64,000 nt of DNA, taken from contig NZ_RDSR01000002.1 of assembly GCF_003716325.1 (NCBI RefSeq), positions 62,001 to 126,000 on the forward strand, in the 5' to 3' direction. Source of the stretch: Cryobacterium tepidiphilum (GTDB lineage: Bacteria > Actinomycetota > Actinomycetes > Actinomycetales > Microbacteriaceae). Below are positions 34,211 through 42,406 of this stretch, piece by piece. The position numbers and the translations under genes were made by a program. The first letter of the stretch is position 1; each line of letters starts with the position of its first letter. The notes beneath the pieces are model-generated. The model was given only the letters and a program-made list of their open reading frames with translations. It made no database searches and had not been told where the DNA came from.

Positions 34211-34429
34211 AGGTCTCCCGATCCGGTCCGTTTGGCTACCTGCATGTTACTGGGGTGAGGTGTGACTCGCCCGAAGGCCGCCCGCCCGGGGTGCAATTGC
34301 CGGTCGCGCGGGTCGAACGCCACTGCGCGGGCTGAATTCAGCCCGCGCACCGGCGTTCAACCCGCGCACCGGCATCCGCTGCCCTCGAATGGCGGATGCG
34401 GCGGCGAAAGTGCTAGCATTTCCAAGTTC
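34211..34429. other. Intergenic space before tRNA-Leu
   Basis: 219 bases between fhaA (-) and tRNA-Leu (+). It must hold the promoter of the fhaA operon and that of the tRNA (tagcat at about 34414 is a possible -10). It also holds copy 1 of a palindromic repeat (34306-34373) shared with position 49280. No gene is seen. Confidence 0.6.
34306..34373. repeat. Palindromic intergenic repeat, copy 1
   Basis: Positions 34324-34349 are a perfect 26-bp palindrome around GAATTC. Outside it, 34306-34321 and 34352-34367 form a second pair of arms with one mismatch. A 59-base stretch (34315-34373) matches 49280-49338 with no gaps and few differences. Confidence 0.75.
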
Positions 34430-34513
34430 GCGCGAGTGGCGGAATTGGCAGACGCGCTGGCTTCAGGTGCCAGTGCTCGAAAGGGCGTGGGGGTTCAAGT
34501 CCCCCCTCGCGCA
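34430..34513 (+). tRNA. tRNA-Leu (CAG anticodon)
   Basis: A complete 84-base class II tRNA. The acceptor GCGCGAG pairs with CTCGCGC, the anticodon stem CTGGC/GCCAG closes TTCAGGT, the long variable arm is TGCTCGAAAGGGCGT, and the T arm contains GGTTCAAGTCC. CCA is not encoded. A strong terminator follows after 54 bases, and the accessory island begins there. Confidence 0.95.
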
Positions 34514-34560
34514 CAGTGGGTTAATTGCAAAACTGGCTGTTTTTATTTGCAAATATCCCG

Positions 34561-34973: not shown

Positions 34974-36360
34974 AGTGGTGTAGCCCCGTGGCCCGGCTTC
35001 GTCGTTACTGACGTGAGCGCGGTCACCGTGTGATCCTTCGAGTCAACCGTCTAGAGAATCCTCGAATTGGAGTCATCACGATGACCGCACCTCATATTGT
35101 CGACCCTTCCGGCCTTCTTGTCGAAGCCCTCTCCGACGCGTCCCCGGATTTGATGCGCAGCCTGTTGCAAACCATGATCAACGCGCTGCTGTCCGCGGAC
35201 GCGGACGCCGTCGTCGGCGCCGAGTGGGGCAGACCGTCCCCTGAGCGCACCGCGCAGCGCAACGGTTACCGGCACCGCGACCTCGATACCCGCGTCGGCA
35301 CCGTTGACGTCGCCATCCCGAAGCTGCGCTCCGGGACGTACTTCCCGGAATGGCTGCTGGAGCGCCGCACGCGGGCCGAGGCGGCGATGATCACCGTCGT
35401 CGCCGACTGCTACCTCGCCGGCGTCTCCACCCGCCGGATGGACAAGCTCGTCAAGACCCTCGGCATCTACTCGCTGTCCAAGTCGCAGGTGTCCCGCATG
35501 GCCGCGGACCTCGACGAGCACGTGGACCAGTTCCGGCACCGGCCTCTGGGCGAGGCCGGCCCGTTCACGTTCGTCGCCGCCGACGCGCTAACCATGAAGG
35601 TCCGCGAAGGAGGCCGGGTCATCAACGCCGTCGTCCTGGTCGCCACCGGCGTCAACGGTGACGGGCACCGCGAGGTCCTCGGCATGCGAGTCGCTACCAG
35701 CGAGACCGGGGCGGCGTGGAACAGCTTCTTCGCCGACCTCGTCGCCCGCGGCCTGACCGGGGTGCGCCTGGTCACCTCCGACGCCCACGCCGGCCTCCGG
35801 GACGCGATCGCCGCGAATCTGCCCGGCGCCGCCTGGCAGCGCTGCCGCACCCACTACGCCGCCAACCTGATGTCCGTCTGCCCGAAGAGCATGTGGCCGG
35901 CCGTGAAAGCGATGCTGCACTCCGTCTACGACCAACCCGACGCCGCAGCGGTGAACGCCCAGTTCGACCGCCTCATCGAGTACGTGTCCGCGAAGCTCCC
36001 CGCCGTCGCCGACCACCTGGGCAATGCCCGGGAGGACCTCCTCGCGTTCACCGCGTTCCCAAAGGACGTGTGGCAGCAGATCTGGTCGAACAACCCGCAA
36101 GAACGACTCAACAAGGAGATCCGCCGCCGCACCGACAGCGTCGGGATCTTCCCGAACCGGGAGGCCATCATCCGCCTCGTCGGCGCAGTCCTCGCAGAGC
36201 AGACCGACGAGTGGGCCGAAGGCCGCCGCTACCTCGGCCTCGACGTCCTCGCCCGCTGCCGCCTCACCCTCGTCCCCGATACCGGGAGCGAGGTGAACAC
36301 CGACCCTCTCGAACTCAGCGCCTAACCCCCAACCCGAAGGACACCGACGGCTACACCACT
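34974..36360 (+). mobile_element. IS256-family insertion sequence
   Basis: A 1,387-base element with one transposase gene between perfect 12-bp inverted ends AGTGGTGTAGCC (34974-34985) and its complement (36349-36360). Similarity continues weakly inward. I find no flanking target duplication: the eight bases outside each end differ. The size and gene content are those of a complete IS. Confidence 0.8.
35081..36325 (+). CDS. IS256-family transposase
   Basis: A 414-residue mutator-type (Transposase_mut) DDE transposase. The likely catalytic residues are D168 (FVAADALT), D234 (VTSDAHAG) and the glutamate of NNPQERLNKEIRRR (E341 or E346). The C-to-H motif C255-H258 of the family is present. The start is ATG 35081 with GGAG upstream; 17 extra in-frame residues upstream lack a ribosome site. 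The frame is intact and of normal length, so the element may be active. Confidence 0.93.
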   Translation: MTAPHIVDPSGLLVEALSDASPDLMRSLLQTMINALLSADADAVVGAEWGRPSPERTAQRNGYRHRDLDTRVGTVDVAIPKLRSGTYFPEWLLERRTRAEAAMITVVADCYLAGVSTRRMDKLVKTLGIYSLSKSQVSRMAADLDEHVDQFRHRPLGEAGPFTFVAADALTMKVREGGRVINAVVLVATGVNGDGHREVLGMRVATSETGAAWNSFFADLVARGLTGVRLVTSDAHAGLRDAIAANLPGAAWQRCRTHYAANLMSVCPKSMWPAVKAMLHSVYDQPDAAAVNAQFDRLIEYVSAKLPAVADHLGNAREDLLAFTAFPKDVWQQIWSNNPQERLNKEIRRRTDSVGIFPNREAIIRLVGAVLAEQTDEWAEGRRYLGLDVLARCRLTLVPDTGSEVNTDPLELSA

Positions 36361-36426
36361 ACCGGGGACTTGACCGTGGGCTGAAAGCACCATCCATGGG
36401 CACCATCGTTTCTCTGGGGGTTTGCA

Positions 36427-39400
36427 ATGACGGCAACAATGTCCACTACTGGAACTGCGCGCGCTGGATTTCGGCGCAGCAGCAAGGCGGCCCTGACCGG
36501 TGTGTTGAGTGGGGCGATGATCTTTGGTCTCGCTGGGGCTGCGCAGGCGACGACGTCGGGTCTTCCTGGTTACTCCGACGAGACCGGGTTGACGGGCGCA
36601 CGCCCCAATGCGACGCGGTTGTCGTTCTATGTCAGCGACCAGGTCAGCGCGACGATCGACGTCGGCACCGGGAACCTCATGGTGACATCCCGCAACTTGG
36701 TGCTGCCGGGAGTCAACGGCAGCGTCCCGATCGGCGAGACGTACAACCTGCTCGGTGCCGAGGTCGGGTCGACCTCGACCCTGGAGGCGAACAACTGGAC
36801 GTTGGGGCTCGGCGGTGCCGGTTCGCTCGCCCAGGCGGATGCCGGCGTCGTTTATACCGGTGGCGATGGTTCCACCTGGTTGTTCACCCCGGTGTCCGGT
36901 TCGTCGACCGCGTTCTCGTCGCCGGCCGGATTGAAGGGGGACCTCATCAAAACGGCCAGCGGGTACACGTTGTCGTTCCACGGTTCCGGTCAGGTGGTGT
37001 CGTTCGACGCGTCGGGCAACGCGGTGAGTGTCGCGGACCGGAACGGGAACACGACCACGATCTCGTACACGAGCGGCCAACCGACCTCGATCACGTCGAC
37101 TGCTGGTCCTACCGCGGCGCGGACGGCGGCGTTGTCGTATTCCTCGACATCGCGGACGTTGACGGTGTCGCAGACGAGCGGCTCGCTGTCGCGGTCGGTG
37201 AAGTACGTGAAGGACGCGTCGTCGAATCTGACGTCGATCGTGGACGCGAACGGGAAGACGACGAGCTTCGCGTACGGGTCGAATTCGAAGCTGACGTCGA
37301 TCACGTCGCCGACGGGGGCGGTGACGAACTTCAGCTACAACAGCGCCGGCCTGCCGGTGCAGGTGGATCAGCTCAACACGAGCGTGGGGTCGCCGGGCAC
37401 GGCGACGACTCGGTTCGATTACACCGACGGGCCCGAGACCCTCGTCGCGGGCCCGAACACGGCTGTTTCTCCGGTGTCTGCGGCCCCGCACACGACGTAT
37501 GAGTTGAACGCCGACGACCGGGTGACGTCGGCGACGGACCCGGAGGGCCGCTCCCGGTCCCGCACGTATACACCCGAAGCGGATGTCGCGACGGCTACGG
37601 ATGGCACCGGCACGACCGGTGGCACGACGACGGCGACGTACGGGGCCAACTCGGGCGAGTCGTTGACGAAGGTACAGTCACCGGGCGGTGCGGCCGGGCA
37701 GGCGGCGTACGCGAACACGTCGCCGGGGGCGAAGTACCAGCCGTCGTCGGCTACGGATGACGCCGGTAACACCAGCCTGTACACGTATAGCGGTTCGGGG
37801 AACGCGCTTACCGCGAGCGACGCGAGCTCCGCGACCGCCACCCTCACCTACCACTCGGACGGGACGGTTGCGACGGCGACGGCGCCGGGTAACGGCACGA
37901 ACAAGACGGTGTATTGGTACACGGATCACCAGCTGACCTGGGTGACCCCGGTGACCGGTTCCTCCCTCGGCGCCCGGGACCTGGCCTATGACGACTTCGG
38001 CCGGCTCTCGACCGACACTGACGGGCGCGGGATTACCACCACCTACACCTATGACAAGGTCGACCGGGTGCTGTCGACGTCGTTCTCCGACGGCACCCCC
38101 ACCGTCAGCTACACCTACAACGCGGCCGGGAAGACGGCCACCCGTGTCGACGGCGAAGGCACCACGACGTATGGGTATGACCAGTTGGGCCGGTTGACAT
38201 CGCGGGTAAACACCGCCGGCGGTGGCACCATCAGCTACGGGTACGACAAAGCGTCCAACCTGACGTCCACGACGGACTCCCGCGGCACGACCACGTACGC
38301 GTTCGACGACTCGGGGGTGCCGACCAAGCTGAACTACCAGTACAACGGCGGCACCCACGTGCTCGCGTTCGCAACCGACGACCGGGGCCGCCGCACCGAC
38401 AGCTGGATGGACGCGAACAGCGACCACTCCACCTGGGTCGCCCACACCCACACTGACTACGACACCAGCGGCCGCGTCACCGCCGTGACCGCGGAAGAGG
38501 GCCACGGGAACAGCGACAACACGTCGATCATGGACCTGACGTACTGCTACGCCGCCGGCTCTACCGCCCCCACCTGCCCGACCACGGCGTCCAGTGACCG
38601 GTCGAAGATCCAATGGCAGAAGGACAACCTCACCGGCGCCGTCACCGCCTACACCTACGACACCGCCGGCCGGCTGACGCAGGCGAAGATCACCGGCGGT
38701 ACGAGCCCGACGACATACAACTACACGTACGACGCTCGCGGCAACCGGCTCACCGTCAGCGGCGGGACGGCCCCGGCGCGGACGCTCACGGTCAACGCGG
38801 CGAACCAGATCACCAGCACCGGGTACACCTACGATGGGGCCGGGAACCTGACCGCTGACTCGCACGGCACCTACGAGTACAACGGGGCCGAGCAGATGAC
38901 CGGTGTCACCGTCGGCGGGACGACGTATAGTCCGGATTATGCGGGGACCGGGCAGAACGAGATCCTCTCGGAGAACACCACGGGCGGGTATTACAAGTAC
39001 ACGTACGGGCGCACCGACCAGAACGGGCAGCCCGTGATCGAACAGGTCAATCGCGACAACCAGACCGCCTACGTGGAACACGACCCGGTGACCGGGGAGC
39101 CGCTGATGCTCCGCACCTCCAGCGGCATGCAGTCCCTGTACGTGCACGACGGCACCGGCAACCCCACCGTCCTGGTCACCAGCGGCTCCTACCGGGCGTT
39201 CGCCTACAGCTACGACCCCTACGGCGTTCCCACCCTCACCGAGGACTCCGGCGGCAACGGCACCAGCCAAAACCCGTACACGTTCAAGAACGGCGTCCAG
39301 GAACGCACCACCGGCTGGATCCACTACGGCGCCCGCTGGTACGACCCAACCACCGGCAGGTTCACGCAACAAGACACGATGGACGCGCCGCTCGACCCGC

Positions 39401-39717
39401 ACAACGCGAACAGGTACGCCTACGCTGGAGGAGACCCCGTCAACAATTCCGATCCAAGCGGCACGAGCGTGCTTAGCGTTGCGTATAAGATCCTCAAGTT
39501 GATAATGGAGGGTAAGAGCCTAGGTGAGGCTCTGGCGGGTCTGACATCGGGGGAAGCGCTGGGCGCGCTCTACGGCAGTGTCGTGGGTGGCGCATGCGGA
39601 ATCTTCGTGGGGACTCTAGCGATAGAAACACTTGGCGTGGGACTTCTCGCGGGCTTGAGCTGTACCGCGCTTGCCCAGAGCGCTTCGGTCGGCTTCCAAG
39701 CCATTTATACGCTGTGA
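36427..39717 (+). CDS. Secreted Rhs/YD-repeat protein with a variable C-terminal tip
   Basis: A 1,096-residue protein. An N-terminal Sec signal (about 14-44: basic SSKA region, hydrophobic VLSGAMIFGLAGAAQA, then ATTSG) sends it out of the cell. Next is an actinobacterial Rhs N-terminal region (VGTGNLMVTSRNL), many YD repeats (YTYDKVDRVLST, YGYDQLGRLTSR, TYDTAGRLTQA) and the Rhs core (ARWYDPTTGRFTQQD at 969-983) ending in DPSG (1009-1012). The remaining 84 residues are a hydrophobic, glycine-rich tip with C near 1055 and 1078. The tip uses ATA, CTA and other codons absent from the core. The start is ATG 36427; ATG 36439 is possible. By family, this is a contact-toxin architecture. Confidence 0.88.
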   Translation: MTATMSTTGTARAGFRRSSKAALTGVLSGAMIFGLAGAAQATTSGLPGYSDETGLTGARPNATRLSFYVSDQVSATIDVGTGNLMVTSRNLVLPGVNGSVPIGETYNLLGAEVGSTSTLEANNWTLGLGGAGSLAQADAGVVYTGGDGSTWLFTPVSGSSTAFSSPAGLKGDLIKTASGYTLSFHGSGQVVSFDASGNAVSVADRNGNTTTISYTSGQPTSITSTAGPTAARTAALSYSSTSRTLTVSQTSGSLSRSVKYVKDASSNLTSIVDANGKTTSFAYGSNSKLTSITSPTGAVTNFSYNSAGLPVQVDQLNTSVGSPGTATTRFDYTDGPETLVAGPNTAVSPVSAAPHTTYELNADDRVTSATDPEGRSRSRTYTPEADVATATDGTGTTGGTTTATYGANSGESLTKVQSPGGAAGQAAYANTSPGAKYQPSSATDDAGNTSLYTYSGSGNALTASDASSATATLTYHSDGTVATATAPGNGTNKTVYWYTDHQLTWVTPVTGSSLGARDLAYDDFGRLSTDTDGRGITTTYTYDKVDRVLSTSFSDGTPTVSYTYNAAGKTATRVDGEGTTTYGYDQLGRLTSRVNTAGGGTISYGYDKASNLTSTTDSRGTTTYAFDDSGVPTKLNYQYNGGTHVLAFATDDRGRRTDSWMDANSDHSTWVAHTHTDYDTSGRVTAVTAEEGHGNSDNTSIMDLTYCYAAGSTAPTCPTTASSDRSKIQWQKDNLTGAVTAYTYDTAGRLTQAKITGGTSPTTYNYTYDARGNRLTVSGGTAPARTLTVNAANQITSTGYTYDGAGNLTADSHGTYEYNGAEQMTGVTVGGTTYSPDYAGTGQNEILSENTTGGYYKYTYGRTDQNGQPVIEQVNRDNQTAYVEHDPVTGEPLMLRTSSGMQSLYVHDGTGNPTVLVTSGSYRAFAYSYDPYGVPTLTEDSGGNGTSQNPYTFKNGVQERTTGWIHYGARWYDPTTGRFTQQDTMDAPLDPHNANRYAYAGGDPVNNSDPSGTSVLSVAYKILKLIMEGKSLGEALAGLTSGEALGALYGSVVGGACGIFVGTLAIETLGVGLLAGLSCTALAQSASVGFQAIYTL

Positions 39718-39814
39718 ACCTGCGCGTGACTGGTCAGCAAGTCGTCGGAGTAGCGTCTGCTAACCAACTCCTCCCGCGTCCAAGCCGCCACCACTCAAGC
39801 AGTGAAGGAATCGC

Positions 39815-40111
39815 GTGAACAAGGTATTTGAGATTTGGTTCCGATTTGTCAGTCCAATCTGCGTTCTGGTTTTCGGTGCCCTCTTCGCGTTCCACGGGCT
39901 GGGTTGGCTACCGGGTGAGCGTGGTCTACCACCGGCCCACGTCCAAATCGCAATCGCAGGGGCAATATGCGTCGTCATAGGGCTGATCGGCCTGATCGTC
40001 TGCAACACTCCCAAAGTTCGACGTCGATGGCGTAGGGCCGACCCTGCCTACTGGACCGACGAACCGGATGCGGACGGCAGTCGAGGTAAAGTAGGGGATC
40101 GCTTAAGGTAG
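39815..40111 (+). CDS. Small two-helix membrane protein, candidate Rhs immunity protein
   Basis: A 98-residue protein from GTG 39815, with a strong ribosome site (GAAGGA) six bases upstream. Two transmembrane helices (about 9-31 and 43-66) are followed by a basic and polar cytoplasmic tail (VRRRWRRADPAY). It lies 97 bases after the Rhs stop in the same direction and uses codons (ATA, CTA, TTA, AGG) rare in the neighbouring chromosome. I recognise no family. An immunity role is inferred from position, codon match with the Rhs tip and the membrane character of both. Confidence 0.6.
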   Translation: MNKVFEIWFRFVSPICVLVFGALFAFHGLGWLPGERGLPPAHVQIAIAGAICVVIGLIGLIVCNTPKVRRRWRRADPAYWTDEPDADGSRGKVGDRLR

Positions 40112-40380
40112 CAAGGCTTTCGTGGACCAGCGGTACTCGCGTTTTCTCGATGGGAGCGGCGCTGTCTCAGCTGTTTTGCAGGAATCGCATTCCTTCTTCC
40201 TAGCGGTTTCCAGAAGGTATTCAGCTCCCTTCGCGTCTCGCGAATCAGGGAGGATTTTCGTCCAAGTTTGAGAGGATCTGCTGTCGGCGAGGTTGGATTA
40301 GCAGAAAGGTGGCCAGTGAAATCAAGGGTCGCTGAGAGCATGTAGAGTTTTGCAATCGACCCACAGTGGTCGAAAGACCA

Positions 40381-40418
40381 GCGAACACGAAAGGCCCCCG
40401 AGGAATCGGGGGCCTTCG
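40381..40418 (+). repeat. 38-bp direct repeat, right copy
   Basis: It matches 34561-34598 at 36 of the 38 positions. The eight bases CACAGTGG also occur just upstream of both copies, at 34512-34519 and 40366-40373, but the spacing differs. Confidence 0.85.
40388..40418 (-). terminator. Terminator hairpin near the kup 3' end
   Basis: CGAA(A)GGCCCCCGA pairs with TCGGGGGCCTTCG around GGAA. It lies 27 bases past the kup stop, so it may now end kup transcription from the - strand as well as transcripts leaving the island. Confidence 0.65.
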
Positions 40419-40444
40419 CTTTGCGTAGCGTGATCATGCTTGCC

Positions 40445-42406
40445 CTAGATTTCGACGTCGCTGCCCATCGTGAGGGTACGAAGCACGGGGAGCCCGAAAC
40501 GGGCGGCGGGATCGACGGCATTGTGCGCAAGCGCCACGAACAGTTTCTTGCGCCACGTTGCCATCCCCTTGGGATGCATCGCGCGGATCGCACCGCGGGA
40601 GACGAAGTAGGACGCCGTGCCCACATCTGCTGCCTCGAAGGGCAGGATCTCCTGGCGGCAGGCGGCTCGCAGGGCCGTCGGAATATCAGGCTTATCGGAG
40701 AACCCGAACCGCATCGTCAGGTGCTCGATGCCGTCGTCCGAGTAGCCCAGATCGTCGTAGGTGAACGCTTGTGACATCGGCACGTGCGGCACTCGCGCAG
40801 TGATCACCGAAACGATGAGAACGTGTTCGTGAAGAATGTGGTTGTGCTCGACGTTCGCCCGGAGGGCAAGCGGAGTGGTGTCCTTGTTCGGGTGCGGGAA
40901 GACCGCGATACCCGGGACGCGCGGTACGGCTTTCGCGTGGACTGCCTCGATGAATTTCGCGAGAGACCCCTCCTTCTCGCCCCTGTCCTCGACAACGAGC
41001 TGGCGGCCCCTGCGCCAGGTGGTCATCACGGTGATGACCACGGCGGCGATGAGCAGCGGCACCCAGCCGCCGAACACGATCTTCGAGAGGTTTCCGGCCA
41101 GGAACGTCAGTTCCAGGCCGCCGAAAGCGATCGCGGCCACGGCGATCTTCCACACGCGCCACCCCCACAGCAGGCGTGCGACAAGCAGCAGCAACGCGGT
41201 GTCGACGACCATGGCGCCCGTCACGGAGATTCCGTAGGCCGTGGCCAGCCGTGCCGAGGAGCCGAAGGTGAGCATCACCGCCAGGACCCCGATGAACAGC
41301 AGCCCGTTGATCGCGGGCAGGTACACCTGGCCACCCTCCCGTTCCGACGTCTGGCGAATGGTGAGCGGGGGAAGCAGTCCGAGCTGCACGGCCTGTCTCG
41401 ACAACGAGAACGCGCCGGAGATGACCGCCTGGCTGGCGATCACCGTGGCCGCGGTCGCCAGGATCACCATCGGCAGGCGACCCCACTCCGGGATGAGCAG
41501 GAAGAACGGGTCCGTCCTGGCTTCCGGATCGTGCAAGAGGAGTGCCGCCTGCCCGAGGTAGTTGAGCGTGAGCGCAGGGAAGACGAGAAAGAACCAGGCT
41601 CGACGGATGGGGCGGCGACCGAAATGCCCCATGTCTGCGTAGAGTGCCTCGGCTCCCGTGATGACCAGCACCACCGCGCCCATGGCGACAAAGGTGATGA
41701 CCGGATGCGCAAACGCGAACGTGAGCGCATACGTCGGCGACAACCCGAGCAAGACCGACGGATGCTGCACCACCATCCCGAGACCTGCCACCGCAAGAAC
41801 GACGAACCAGAGCACCATGACCGGCCCGAACAGTGCGCCGACTTTGCCGGTGCCGAACCGCTGCACAGCGAAGAGTCCGATGAGAATCACGGCGGCGATC
41901 GGGATAACGAGGTGGGAGATCGCCGGCGCCGCGACGTGAAGGCCTTCGACGGCAGAGAGCACGCTGATCGCCGGCGTGATGATCGAATCGCCATAGAAGA
42001 GCGCCACTCCGACGATGCCGACGACCAACAGCATTCCCGAACGGCTGGCCCGATGGGCGTAGAGGCGTTGCGCCAGAACGGCCAACGCCATCACGCCACC
42101 TTCGCCGTTGTTGTCAGCGCGCATCAGCACGCCGAGGTACTTGATCGACACGATGACGGTCATGCTCCAGAACATGAGTGAGATGACGCCGTAGATGTCG
42201 GCTTCGTTCACCTTCACCGCGCCGTCGTCGATGGTGAACACCGTGTGCAATGCATATAGCGGGCTCGTGCCGATGTCGCCGAAGACAACGCCCAAAGCGG
42301 CGAGGGCAGTGAGGTACAGAGCCCGGCTGCCACGGGCGCCGTGGCCCGCGCCTGAGCTTTTCGCTGGCGCCGCCGGGGGATGAATTGAGGCGGTCGGTTT
42401 GGTCAC
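40445..42406 (-). CDS. kup: Kup-type potassium uptake protein
   Basis: Kup/HAK proteins import K+ with protons. The 653-residue protein has the family N terminus (LGVVFGDIGTSPLYALHTVF), about twelve transmembrane helices, and a cytoplasmic C-terminal domain from about residue 470. The start is GTG 42406 with a weak ribosome site. I looked at the 120-base leader for a c-di-AMP riboswitch (often linked to K+ genes) and could not recognise one. It is the first conserved-type gene after the island. Confidence 0.94.
   Translation of the reverse strand: MTKPTASIHPPAAPAKSSGAGHGARGSRALYLTALAALGVVFGDIGTSPLYALHTVFTIDDGAVKVNEADIYGVISLMFWSMTVIVSIKYLGVLMRADNNGEGGVMALAVLAQRLYAHRASRSGMLLVVGIVGVALFYGDSIITPAISVLSAVEGLHVAAPAISHLVIPIAAVILIGLFAVQRFGTGKVGALFGPVMVLWFVVLAVAGLGMVVQHPSVLLGLSPTYALTFAFAHPVITFVAMGAVVLVITGAEALYADMGHFGRRPIRRAWFFLVFPALTLNYLGQAALLLHDPEARTDPFFLLIPEWGRLPMVILATAATVIASQAVISGAFSLSRQAVQLGLLPPLTIRQTSEREGGQVYLPAINGLLFIGVLAVMLTFGSSARLATAYGISVTGAMVVDTALLLLVARLLWGWRVWKIAVAAIAFGGLELTFLAGNLSKIVFGGWVPLLIAAVVITVMTTWRRGRQLVVEDRGEKEGSLAKFIEAVHAKAVPRVPGIAVFPHPNKDTTPLALRANVEHNHILHEHVLIVSVITARVPHVPMSQAFTYDDLGYSDDGIEHLTMRFGFSDKPDIPTALRAACRQEILPFEAADVGTASYFVSRGAIRAMHPKGMATWRKKLFVALAHNAVDPAARFGLPVLRTLTMGSDVEI

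Follow-up and report, generated by a model that had tools for sequence, protein, structure and literature searches.

A secreted Rhs protein of Cryobacterium tepidiphilum with an exchangeable, putatively membrane-active tip and an adjacent putative immunity gene

Rhs tips of known function are mostly enzymes that need to enter the cytoplasm, which is puzzling for Gram-positive Rhs proteins, which lack an injection machine. Depolarising or membrane-directed tips are already known on other carriers, as described in the portions of the reports available to us. Tse5, an Rhs protein exported by the Pseudomonas aeruginosa T6SS, is pore-forming and has catalytic residues D1141 and D1164, 23 apart (PMC10684867); the CDI ionophores of the CdiA-CT EC93 family are depolarising C-terminal toxins, polymorphic and equipped with a glycine zipper, whose immunity proteins are hypervariable (PMC11630599); EsxX/ExiCD of the Staphylococcus aureus T7SS combines a depolarising glycine-zipper tip with membrane immunity against the extracellular form (PMC12744356); and a membrane tip is described on a teneurin-like protein, BiTLP (PMC13018210). 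WapA, for example in Streptococcus suis, has a signal peptide, YD repeats, a variable tip and an adjacent immunity gene (PMC12704120). Class II microcins (colicin V, E492 and others) are peptides of about 5-10 kDa, on average 61% hydrophobic and mostly neutral or anionic, in which disulfides are possible; they act at the inner membrane, and their immunity proteins (51-216 aa, median 82) have predicted transmembrane helices and are often encoded by overlapping ORFs (PMC10233263). As represented in the text available, Zhang et al. (2012) listed one pore-forming tip, W-TIP, then confined to proteobacteria (PMC3482391). Among the matches listed in the open PMC literature, seen as titles and the starts of abstracts, with subscription papers and preprints outside this scope, none described actinobacterial Rhs proteins that bear two-cysteine membrane tips followed by two-helix neighbours.

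Here we describe an Rhs locus of C. tepidiphilum that probably encodes a Sec-exported, WapA-like Rhs toxin with a small membrane-active tip and an adjacent putative immunity gene. With Tse5 the protein shares an Rhs shell, a dyad 23 residues apart and a C-terminal tip, depolarisation being the property of Tse5 (PMC10684867, in part), and the Tse5 structure 8cp6 was among both its fold and its sequence matches; Tse5 differs in its T6SS export, Gram-negative host and C-terminal toxin of about 16 kDa, compared with Sec export and mostly two-cysteine tips of 55-108 aa here. WapA is alike in signal peptide, YD repeats and variable tip with adjacent gene, and its truncated duplications with downstream pairs also have counterparts in these loci, whereas the S. 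suis tips CT1 and CT2 are folded domains with model pLDDT above 85, and microcin-like tips paired with two-helix immunity proteins do not figure in the available text (PMC12704120). The CDI ionophores, by contrast, carry a five-helix bundle plus an entry domain, for which the present tips are short, and use two-partner secretion in Gram-negative hosts (excerpts of PMC11630599). EsxX likewise comes from a Gram-positive host but is borne on an LXG carrier, exported by T7SS and countered by two polytopic and two soluble immunity proteins (PMC12744356, excerpts). BiTLP (bacterial teneurin-like protein) is similar in its YD shell, hydrophobic C-terminus and predicted transmembrane stretch and differs in its teneurin-type superfold, only one such tip being described in the available sections of the report (PMC13018210).

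The rhs locus of C. tepidiphilum

The locus lies in a 64,000-nucleotide stretch of C. tepidiphilum DNA (the window), from a genome of 2.86 Mb. Its features, in window coordinates, are as follows.

36427-39717, + strand: rhs gene, 1096 aa, with Sec signal peptide, YD-repeat shell, Rhs-associated core and polymorphic tip
36427-36549, + strand: Sec signal peptide, residues 1-41 (...GLAGAAQA), as read from the sequence
39382-39453, + strand: putative aspartyl autoprotease dyad D986/D1009, 23 residues apart, by homology and invariance
39451-39462, + strand: DPSG motif, residues 1009-1012, core/tip junction
39463-39714, + strand: 84-aa tip after DPSG, putative membrane-active toxin
39595-39597 and 39661-39663, + strand: tip cysteines at tip positions 45 and 67
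39804-39809, + strand: Shine-Dalgarno-like GAAGGA, its AAGGA five bases before the GTG start
39815-40111, + strand: 98-aa two-helix membrane protein with GTG start, putative immunity protein

The rhs product matched PF05593 (RHS_repeat) in Pfam (E 1.4e-31) and, over residues 929-1012, the NCBIfam Rhs-associated core TIGR03696 (E 2.6e-17). The Sec signal peptide proposed in the initial annotation was borne out: by eye the N-terminal segment ends in AQA at residues 39-41, and a loose script agreed, which also found signal-peptide-like N-termini in 20 of 26 ORFs longer than 800 aa. No wall-binding domain was matched by Pfam at the N-terminus of the product, and the modelled shell begins at about residue 61. 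In an AF2 model of the full protein, built on a 23-sequence alignment, the YD shell spans approximately residues 61-980 with most blocks above pLDDT 75, and the tip region has no confident structure. Foldseek returned, best by E-value, the T6SS Rhs structures 8qja and 8qjd, RhsA (7q97), Tse15 and Tse5, and its matches also included RhsP, teneurin-like proteins and Tc toxins; whole-chain TM-scores were only about 0.3-0.5 with large rmsd, so that the barrel shape of the shell is inaccurately modelled. D986 and D1009 are invariant across the 23 aligned Rhs proteins, and the D-23-D spacing is present in 40 of the 50 cassettes described below, so that these residues likely constitute an aspartyl autoprotease dyad with a putative cleavage site just past DPSG. 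Promoter and terminator scans of 36300-40500 gave scores at or near shuffle level.

The core/tip junction had been placed at DPSG with exactly 84 residues following, which is correct, and the tip, annotated as hydrophobic and two-cysteine, has a GRAVY of 1.07 compared to -0.50 in the core. The suggestion of a helical hairpin stood only in part. An AF2 model from an alignment of four tips contains three helices of more than 10 residues within the 84 aa (2-15, 30-55 and 59-83), the last two separated by a turn as a hairpin would require, with a mean pLDDT of 57 that leaves this fold weakly supported. In this low-confidence model Cys45 and Cys67 flank the turn near residue 57, which makes a staple across the hairpin plausible. 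The tip had been assigned to no recognised toxin family, and we likewise obtained no credible family from Pfam, NCBIfam or PADLOC and no match to an unrelated domain or a solved structure; its profile matched no chain among PDB sequences, and at E values up to 1 only weak matches appeared (Romo1, 0.19; DUF6861, 0.44; three NCBIfam families from 0.084).

The closest tips (loci L109, L110 and L111) are 25-29% identical to that of C. tepidiphilum and sit on other Rhs cores. A profile of these four tips identified two further Rhs tips among 299 genomes of the family (L113, E 4.3e-14; L114, E 1e-4), and a third match, L115, was treated as chance at a locus without an Rhs core. When the tip alone was searched against 296 genomes of the class, eight matches were obtained at E 0.01, one from the own genome and seven from others; these seven were treated as chance because the core HMM found no Rhs core at their loci and their ORFs read as other proteins, such as antiporter-like and MFS-like products.

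The downstream gene, annotated as a 98-residue two-helix membrane protein with a ribosome site, is indeed a GTG-started ORF with two hydrophobic segments. Its product has two hydrophobic helices with 15 residues in the loop between them, and helix 2 is followed by a strongly positive tail, KVRRRWRR. The gap of 98 nt between tip and neighbour exceeds that of most cassettes. This protein matched 24 of 296 genomes at E 0.01, the own genome included (best other, 9.7e-5); of the 23 remaining matches, 19 were examined as loci and none had an Rhs core. The neighbours of L109, L110 and L111 are unlike the 39815-40111 product by score (Z 1.3-1.6), leaving the C. tepidiphilum tip and neighbour without a homologous pair; the L113 and L114 tips are also followed by small membrane ORFs, which are unlike it by eye.

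Codon usage separates the tip and the downstream gene from the core, in line with the initial annotation. Neither ATA nor CTA is used among the 1012 codons of the core, whereas the tip contains two of each and so does the downstream gene, and the numerical comparison gave GC3 values of 0.88 for the core, 0.65 for the tip and 0.60 for the downstream gene, the lowest sampled 84-codon window within the core being 0.74. In 49 of the 50 cassettes, GC3 was lower in the tip than at the end of the core (medians 0.57 and 0.86; Wilcoxon 3.6e-15), indicating that AT-richer codon use is a general property of these cassettes. Neighbour GC3 had a median of 0.62 (n=47), and tip and neighbour GC3 were correlated across cassettes (0.43).

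Composition of fifty tips and their neighbours

With the full C. tepidiphilum Rhs protein as query, matches were obtained in 27 of 150 family genomes and in 12 of 57 genomes of the genus, the own genome included, with many weaker matches reflecting generic YD repeats. A profile built on the final 253 residues of the core identified 34 loci in genome records, with Arthrobacter reaching 72% identity and further loci in Schumannella, Microbacterium, Leifsonia, Subtercola, Frigoribacterium, Cryobacterium, Cellulomonas, Frondihabitans, Curtobacterium, Nocardioides, Actinomadura and others. Searching with an HMM for the end of the core yielded 70 modules, of which 50 cassettes were retained. We dropped 10 modules from duplicate loci (L060, L062, L063, L070, L009, L010, L011) and one repeated tip (L107:5938), leaving 59, and then six short or broken modules, two of them by hand (L107:4704, L080:7157), and three long tips borne by Rhs proteins of a different type (L074, 154 aa and open-ended; L076, 464 aa; L077, 241 aa), which indicate that the pattern is not followed by every Rhs protein of these genera. 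Weaker core matches (L012-L028) were mostly outside the tip counts. A second Rhs lineage of the same family (L065, L066, L067, L071, L072, L073) bears tips and neighbours of the same kind. A profile of a second tip subfamily, searched without a positive control, matched nothing in 297 genomes of the order.

The 50 tips are 55-108 aa long (median 74.5). Residues of the set ACFGILMPVWY make up 76% of a tip in the median, glycine and alanine have median contents of 18% each, and the median GRAVY is 0.93. The net charge is negative in 42, zero in six and positive in two, and the median number of lysines plus arginines is one. In length, hydrophobicity, a zero or negative charge (48/50) and the possibility of disulfides, the tips resemble class II microcins, and the adjacent small membrane ORF would be a candidate counterpart of the microcin immunity genes; microcins are free peptides of Enterobacteriaceae with a double-glycine leader and their own ABC exporter, unlike the C-terminus of a 1096-aa Sec-type Rhs protein, and none of the 50 tips had a credible family match in Pfam or NCBIfam. 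A tip of this kind may therefore work like a microcin, and is not one.

Cysteines occur mostly in even numbers. Two are present in 42 of the 50 tips and four in five; the remaining three tips have three, one and zero cysteines (zero in L087). Were cysteines placed at random with the same frequency, 13.3 tips would be expected to have exactly two and 25.4 an even count; even counts were observed in 48, whereas 20000 simulations never gave more than 40. When clustered at 45% identity the tips form 46 clusters, and in 39 of them the representative has exactly two cysteines, so the excess does not come from one tip counted repeatedly. Even counts are consistent with disulfides formed outside the cytoplasm. 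Glycine-zipper motifs are likewise enriched, with 179 GxxxG in the tips compared to 126 +/- 9.4 in shuffles and 56 GxxxGxxxG compared to 22.5 +/- 5.0, neither reached in any of 500 shuffles. The W-TIP motifs RxxR and Wx[ST]IP were both absent from all 50 tips.

Two other uses of such a hydrophobic segment have to be weighed here. The tip could serve as a C-terminal membrane anchor, so that the Rhs shell is displayed on the surface of the producer, with the small membrane protein as its anchoring partner, as would suit a hydrophobic tip, a partner in the membrane and a secreted carrier; we regard this as unlikely, since an anchor gives no reason for the high polymorphism, the retained downstream cassettes or the paired cysteines, the low lysine and arginine content departs from the usual positive stop-transfer tail, and the Rhs dyad at the junction predicts a cut that would part the shell from the tip. 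Alternatively, the tip could be an intracellular enzyme or a mere entry domain, its membrane character serving passage rather than marking the target. Most Rhs and WapA tips of known function are enzymes, according to the available text of PMC3482391; nonetheless, the length and composition of these tips leave little room for an enzyme, 0 of 50 matched Pfam or PADLOC at E 0.01, the single NCBIfam match (E 0.0086) was weak and judged not credible, and a membrane-bound two-helix protein is unlikely to inhibit a cytoplasmic enzyme. We therefore hold this alternative to be highly improbable and favor a toxin that acts on the membrane itself.

The neighbours were taken as small ORFs starting -60 to +150 nt from the stop and read from the first start codon, with the stops of 217 other long, high-GC3 ORFs from the same loci as controls and helices predicted by hydropathy only. 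A neighbour with at least one predicted helix followed all 50 tips (17 of 217 control stops), at least two helices were predicted in 48 (7 of 217), and exactly two within at most 130 aa in 44 (2 of 217); a looser rule permitting any start codon gave 47 of 50 and 4 of 217. Hence relatives do not lack a downstream membrane gene. Helix exceptions were L082 and L083 with one, L089 and L098:7431 with three and L100 with four, and the L097 neighbour is 160 aa long. Among the 47 any-start picks, 25 begin no later than the first base past the stop, an overlap that is perhaps overstated because the earliest qualifying codon was taken. Positive charge is denser in the two ends than in the loop in 32 of 47 neighbours and sparser in 15, which modestly suggests that both ends lie inside. 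In Pfam the 47 neighbours matched at least 25 weak families, 24 of those listed having one member (best E 2.1e-4), and weak, scattered matches of this sort are expected for hydrophobic sequence.

Exchange of tips and neighbours as cassettes

Comparison of related loci, which the initial annotation had put forward as a check on exchange, gave the predicted outcome that one core can bear different tips. In two Arthrobacter species (L082 and L083) the last 100 core residues are 98% identical and the tips 22%; the corresponding values are 97% and 27% for L090:7209 and L090:5737 and 95% and 29% for L087 and L089. Core identity was at least 72% in 63 cassette pairs, with tip identities of 22-54% among the 40 listed of these 63. 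DNA identity falls at the junction, from 0.88 to 0.59 between L082 and L083 and from 0.95 to 0.61 between two L102 cassettes. Nor is the C. tepidiphilum tip fixed in relatives: five genomes of the genus (L065, L071, L072, L073, L092) bear other tips, and the loci with the nearest cores (L078, L080, L079) have tips and neighbours unrelated to those of C. tepidiphilum. The converse was also observed, with like tips and like neighbours on different cores in L089 and L098:7431, a downstream cassette (Z 19.6 between tips, 17.4 between neighbours), L089 and L091 (11.5, 8.5) and L092:147 and L104 (16.3, 5.6). Collectively, these comparisons show that recombination near the DPSG junction moves tips and neighbours together as cassettes. 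There is good support for the polymorphic-toxin architecture, and likewise for the place of the C. tepidiphilum protein among Rhs polymorphic toxins by its YD repeats and core, dyad and exchanged tips.

Several loci contain multiple cassettes, for example three in L090 and two each in L098, L102 and L103. In Leifsonia aquatica (L090, 6757-8707) three tip and neighbour cassettes stand in a row, each with a core fragment, a clear reservoir. Behind the second cassette of Leifsonia sp. ALI-44-B (L062 2955-4187, reversed strand; L098 locus) there is a string of further small ORFs whose products have membrane segments and which may be orphan immunity genes.

We then assessed whether tips and neighbours co-vary. 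Tip similarity was correlated with neighbour similarity across the 50 pairs (Mantel r 0.26, 0/3000 permutations as high), also without the close relative L101 (r 0.15, 0/3000). With any-start neighbour picks the values were 0.23 (0/5000), 0.10 without L101 (3/3000) and 0.23 in a partial test on core similarity (0/3000). Of 16 tip pairs with Z of at least 6, eight have neighbours at Z of at most 1, for example L079/L104 (19.1, -0.9) and L109/L111 (10.0, -0.6), which implies that neighbours diverge faster or are sometimes swapped. These data bear on a further possibility, namely that tip and neighbour form a two-part pore or a recognition signal, with the neighbour as partner or receptor rather than immunity protein. 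Regular pairing and co-variation would look alike under such a scheme, and the eight strongly similar tip pairs with unlike neighbours could arise with a loosely specific partner; however, the downstream cassettes of L090, L098, L102 and L103 retain their own neighbours, as is usual where Rhs loci have kept immunity, and we consider a two-part pore or signal improbable. A toxin tip with an immunity neighbour remains our preferred reading.

Proposed action at the membrane

Taken together, a secreted carrier, the dyad, paired cysteines in a polymorphic glycine-zipper tip and a neighbour in the membrane suggest a toxin that would act on the membrane from outside; the membrane action of the tip, its disulfide and the immunity conferred by the neighbour are putative functions read from sequence. 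In the mechanism we propose, the Rhs protein would leave the cell via Sec, as its signal peptide suggests. The YD repeats, whose fold is predicted, may close as a shell around the hydrophobic tip, an enclosure suggested by Tse5 and RhsA, and by homology the D986/D1009 dyad would cut just past DPSG. Outside the cell, the two cysteines could staple two glycine-zipper helices, as the near-constant even cysteine count suggests. Once released at a neighbouring cell, the hairpin may insert and depolarise the membrane, and the two-helix protein in the membrane of the producer would presumably block its own tip, a role suggested by its position, predicted topology and co-variation.

If this holds, membrane-active disulfide tips would skip the need for entry altogether, with the outer face of the neighbour's membrane as their target, and the cassettes would represent a large unannotated set of candidate antibacterial peptides and their protection genes in Arthrobacter, Curtobacterium, Leifsonia, Cryobacterium and Streptomyces. 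We further propose, at about an even chance, that a large actinobacterial lineage uses one Sec-exported Rhs shell as the dedicated carrier for dozens of dissimilar, bacteriocin-like, disulfide-stapled glycine-zipper hairpins, each with its two-helix immunity protein, as a shell-delivered counterpart of class II microcins. The shell would then hold in solution, until a rival membrane is met, a peptide that is too hydrophobic to travel unaided, providing bacteria without an outer membrane with a microcin counterpart whose cassette reservoir lies on chromosomes and plasmids.

On plasmids, we examined 12 loci from the best 20 of 1104 matching records, hosted by Microbacterium, three Curtobacterium, Paenarthrobacter and seven Streptomyces. 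Their tips are about 50-95 aa long, those of L117, L122, L125 and L127 being shorter in truth because the script cut early, with cysteine counts unaffected, and all 12 have a two-helix ORF within 100 nt. Two cysteines are present in nine, four in one (L124, which by reading may be frameshifted at its end) and none in two (L118 and L123). L118 and L123 share a tip, as do L125 and L127, leaving ten distinct tips. The rhs genes are labelled mostly "RHS repeat-associated core domain-containing protein", and the incomplete gene table includes the two-helix ORF at three of the 12 loci (L116, L120, L127).

Several minor elements surround the C. tepidiphilum locus. An IS256-family transposase gene (35030-36325, + strand; NCBIfam E 4.4e-100) ends about 100 bp upstream of the rhs start, and an IS256 transposase is likewise present on the Streptomyces californicus plasmid (L119), there downstream of the rhs gene. 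Just upstream of a tRNA-Leu gene (34430-34514) lies an inverted repeat (34306-34367) of two 31-nt arms, 90% complementary, with zero spacer. Between the end of the Rhs locus and a convergent gene at 40445-42406, whose product reads as a Kup-like potassium transporter, there is a GC-rich 11-bp hairpin (40391-40416), perhaps a shared terminator, which is absent from the terminator-scan list. Elsewhere in the same genome (L068, C26:172384-172503), a 40-residue remnant of the same Rhs core, 68% identical, lies near an ORF that by reading resembles an IS3-type transposase fragment.
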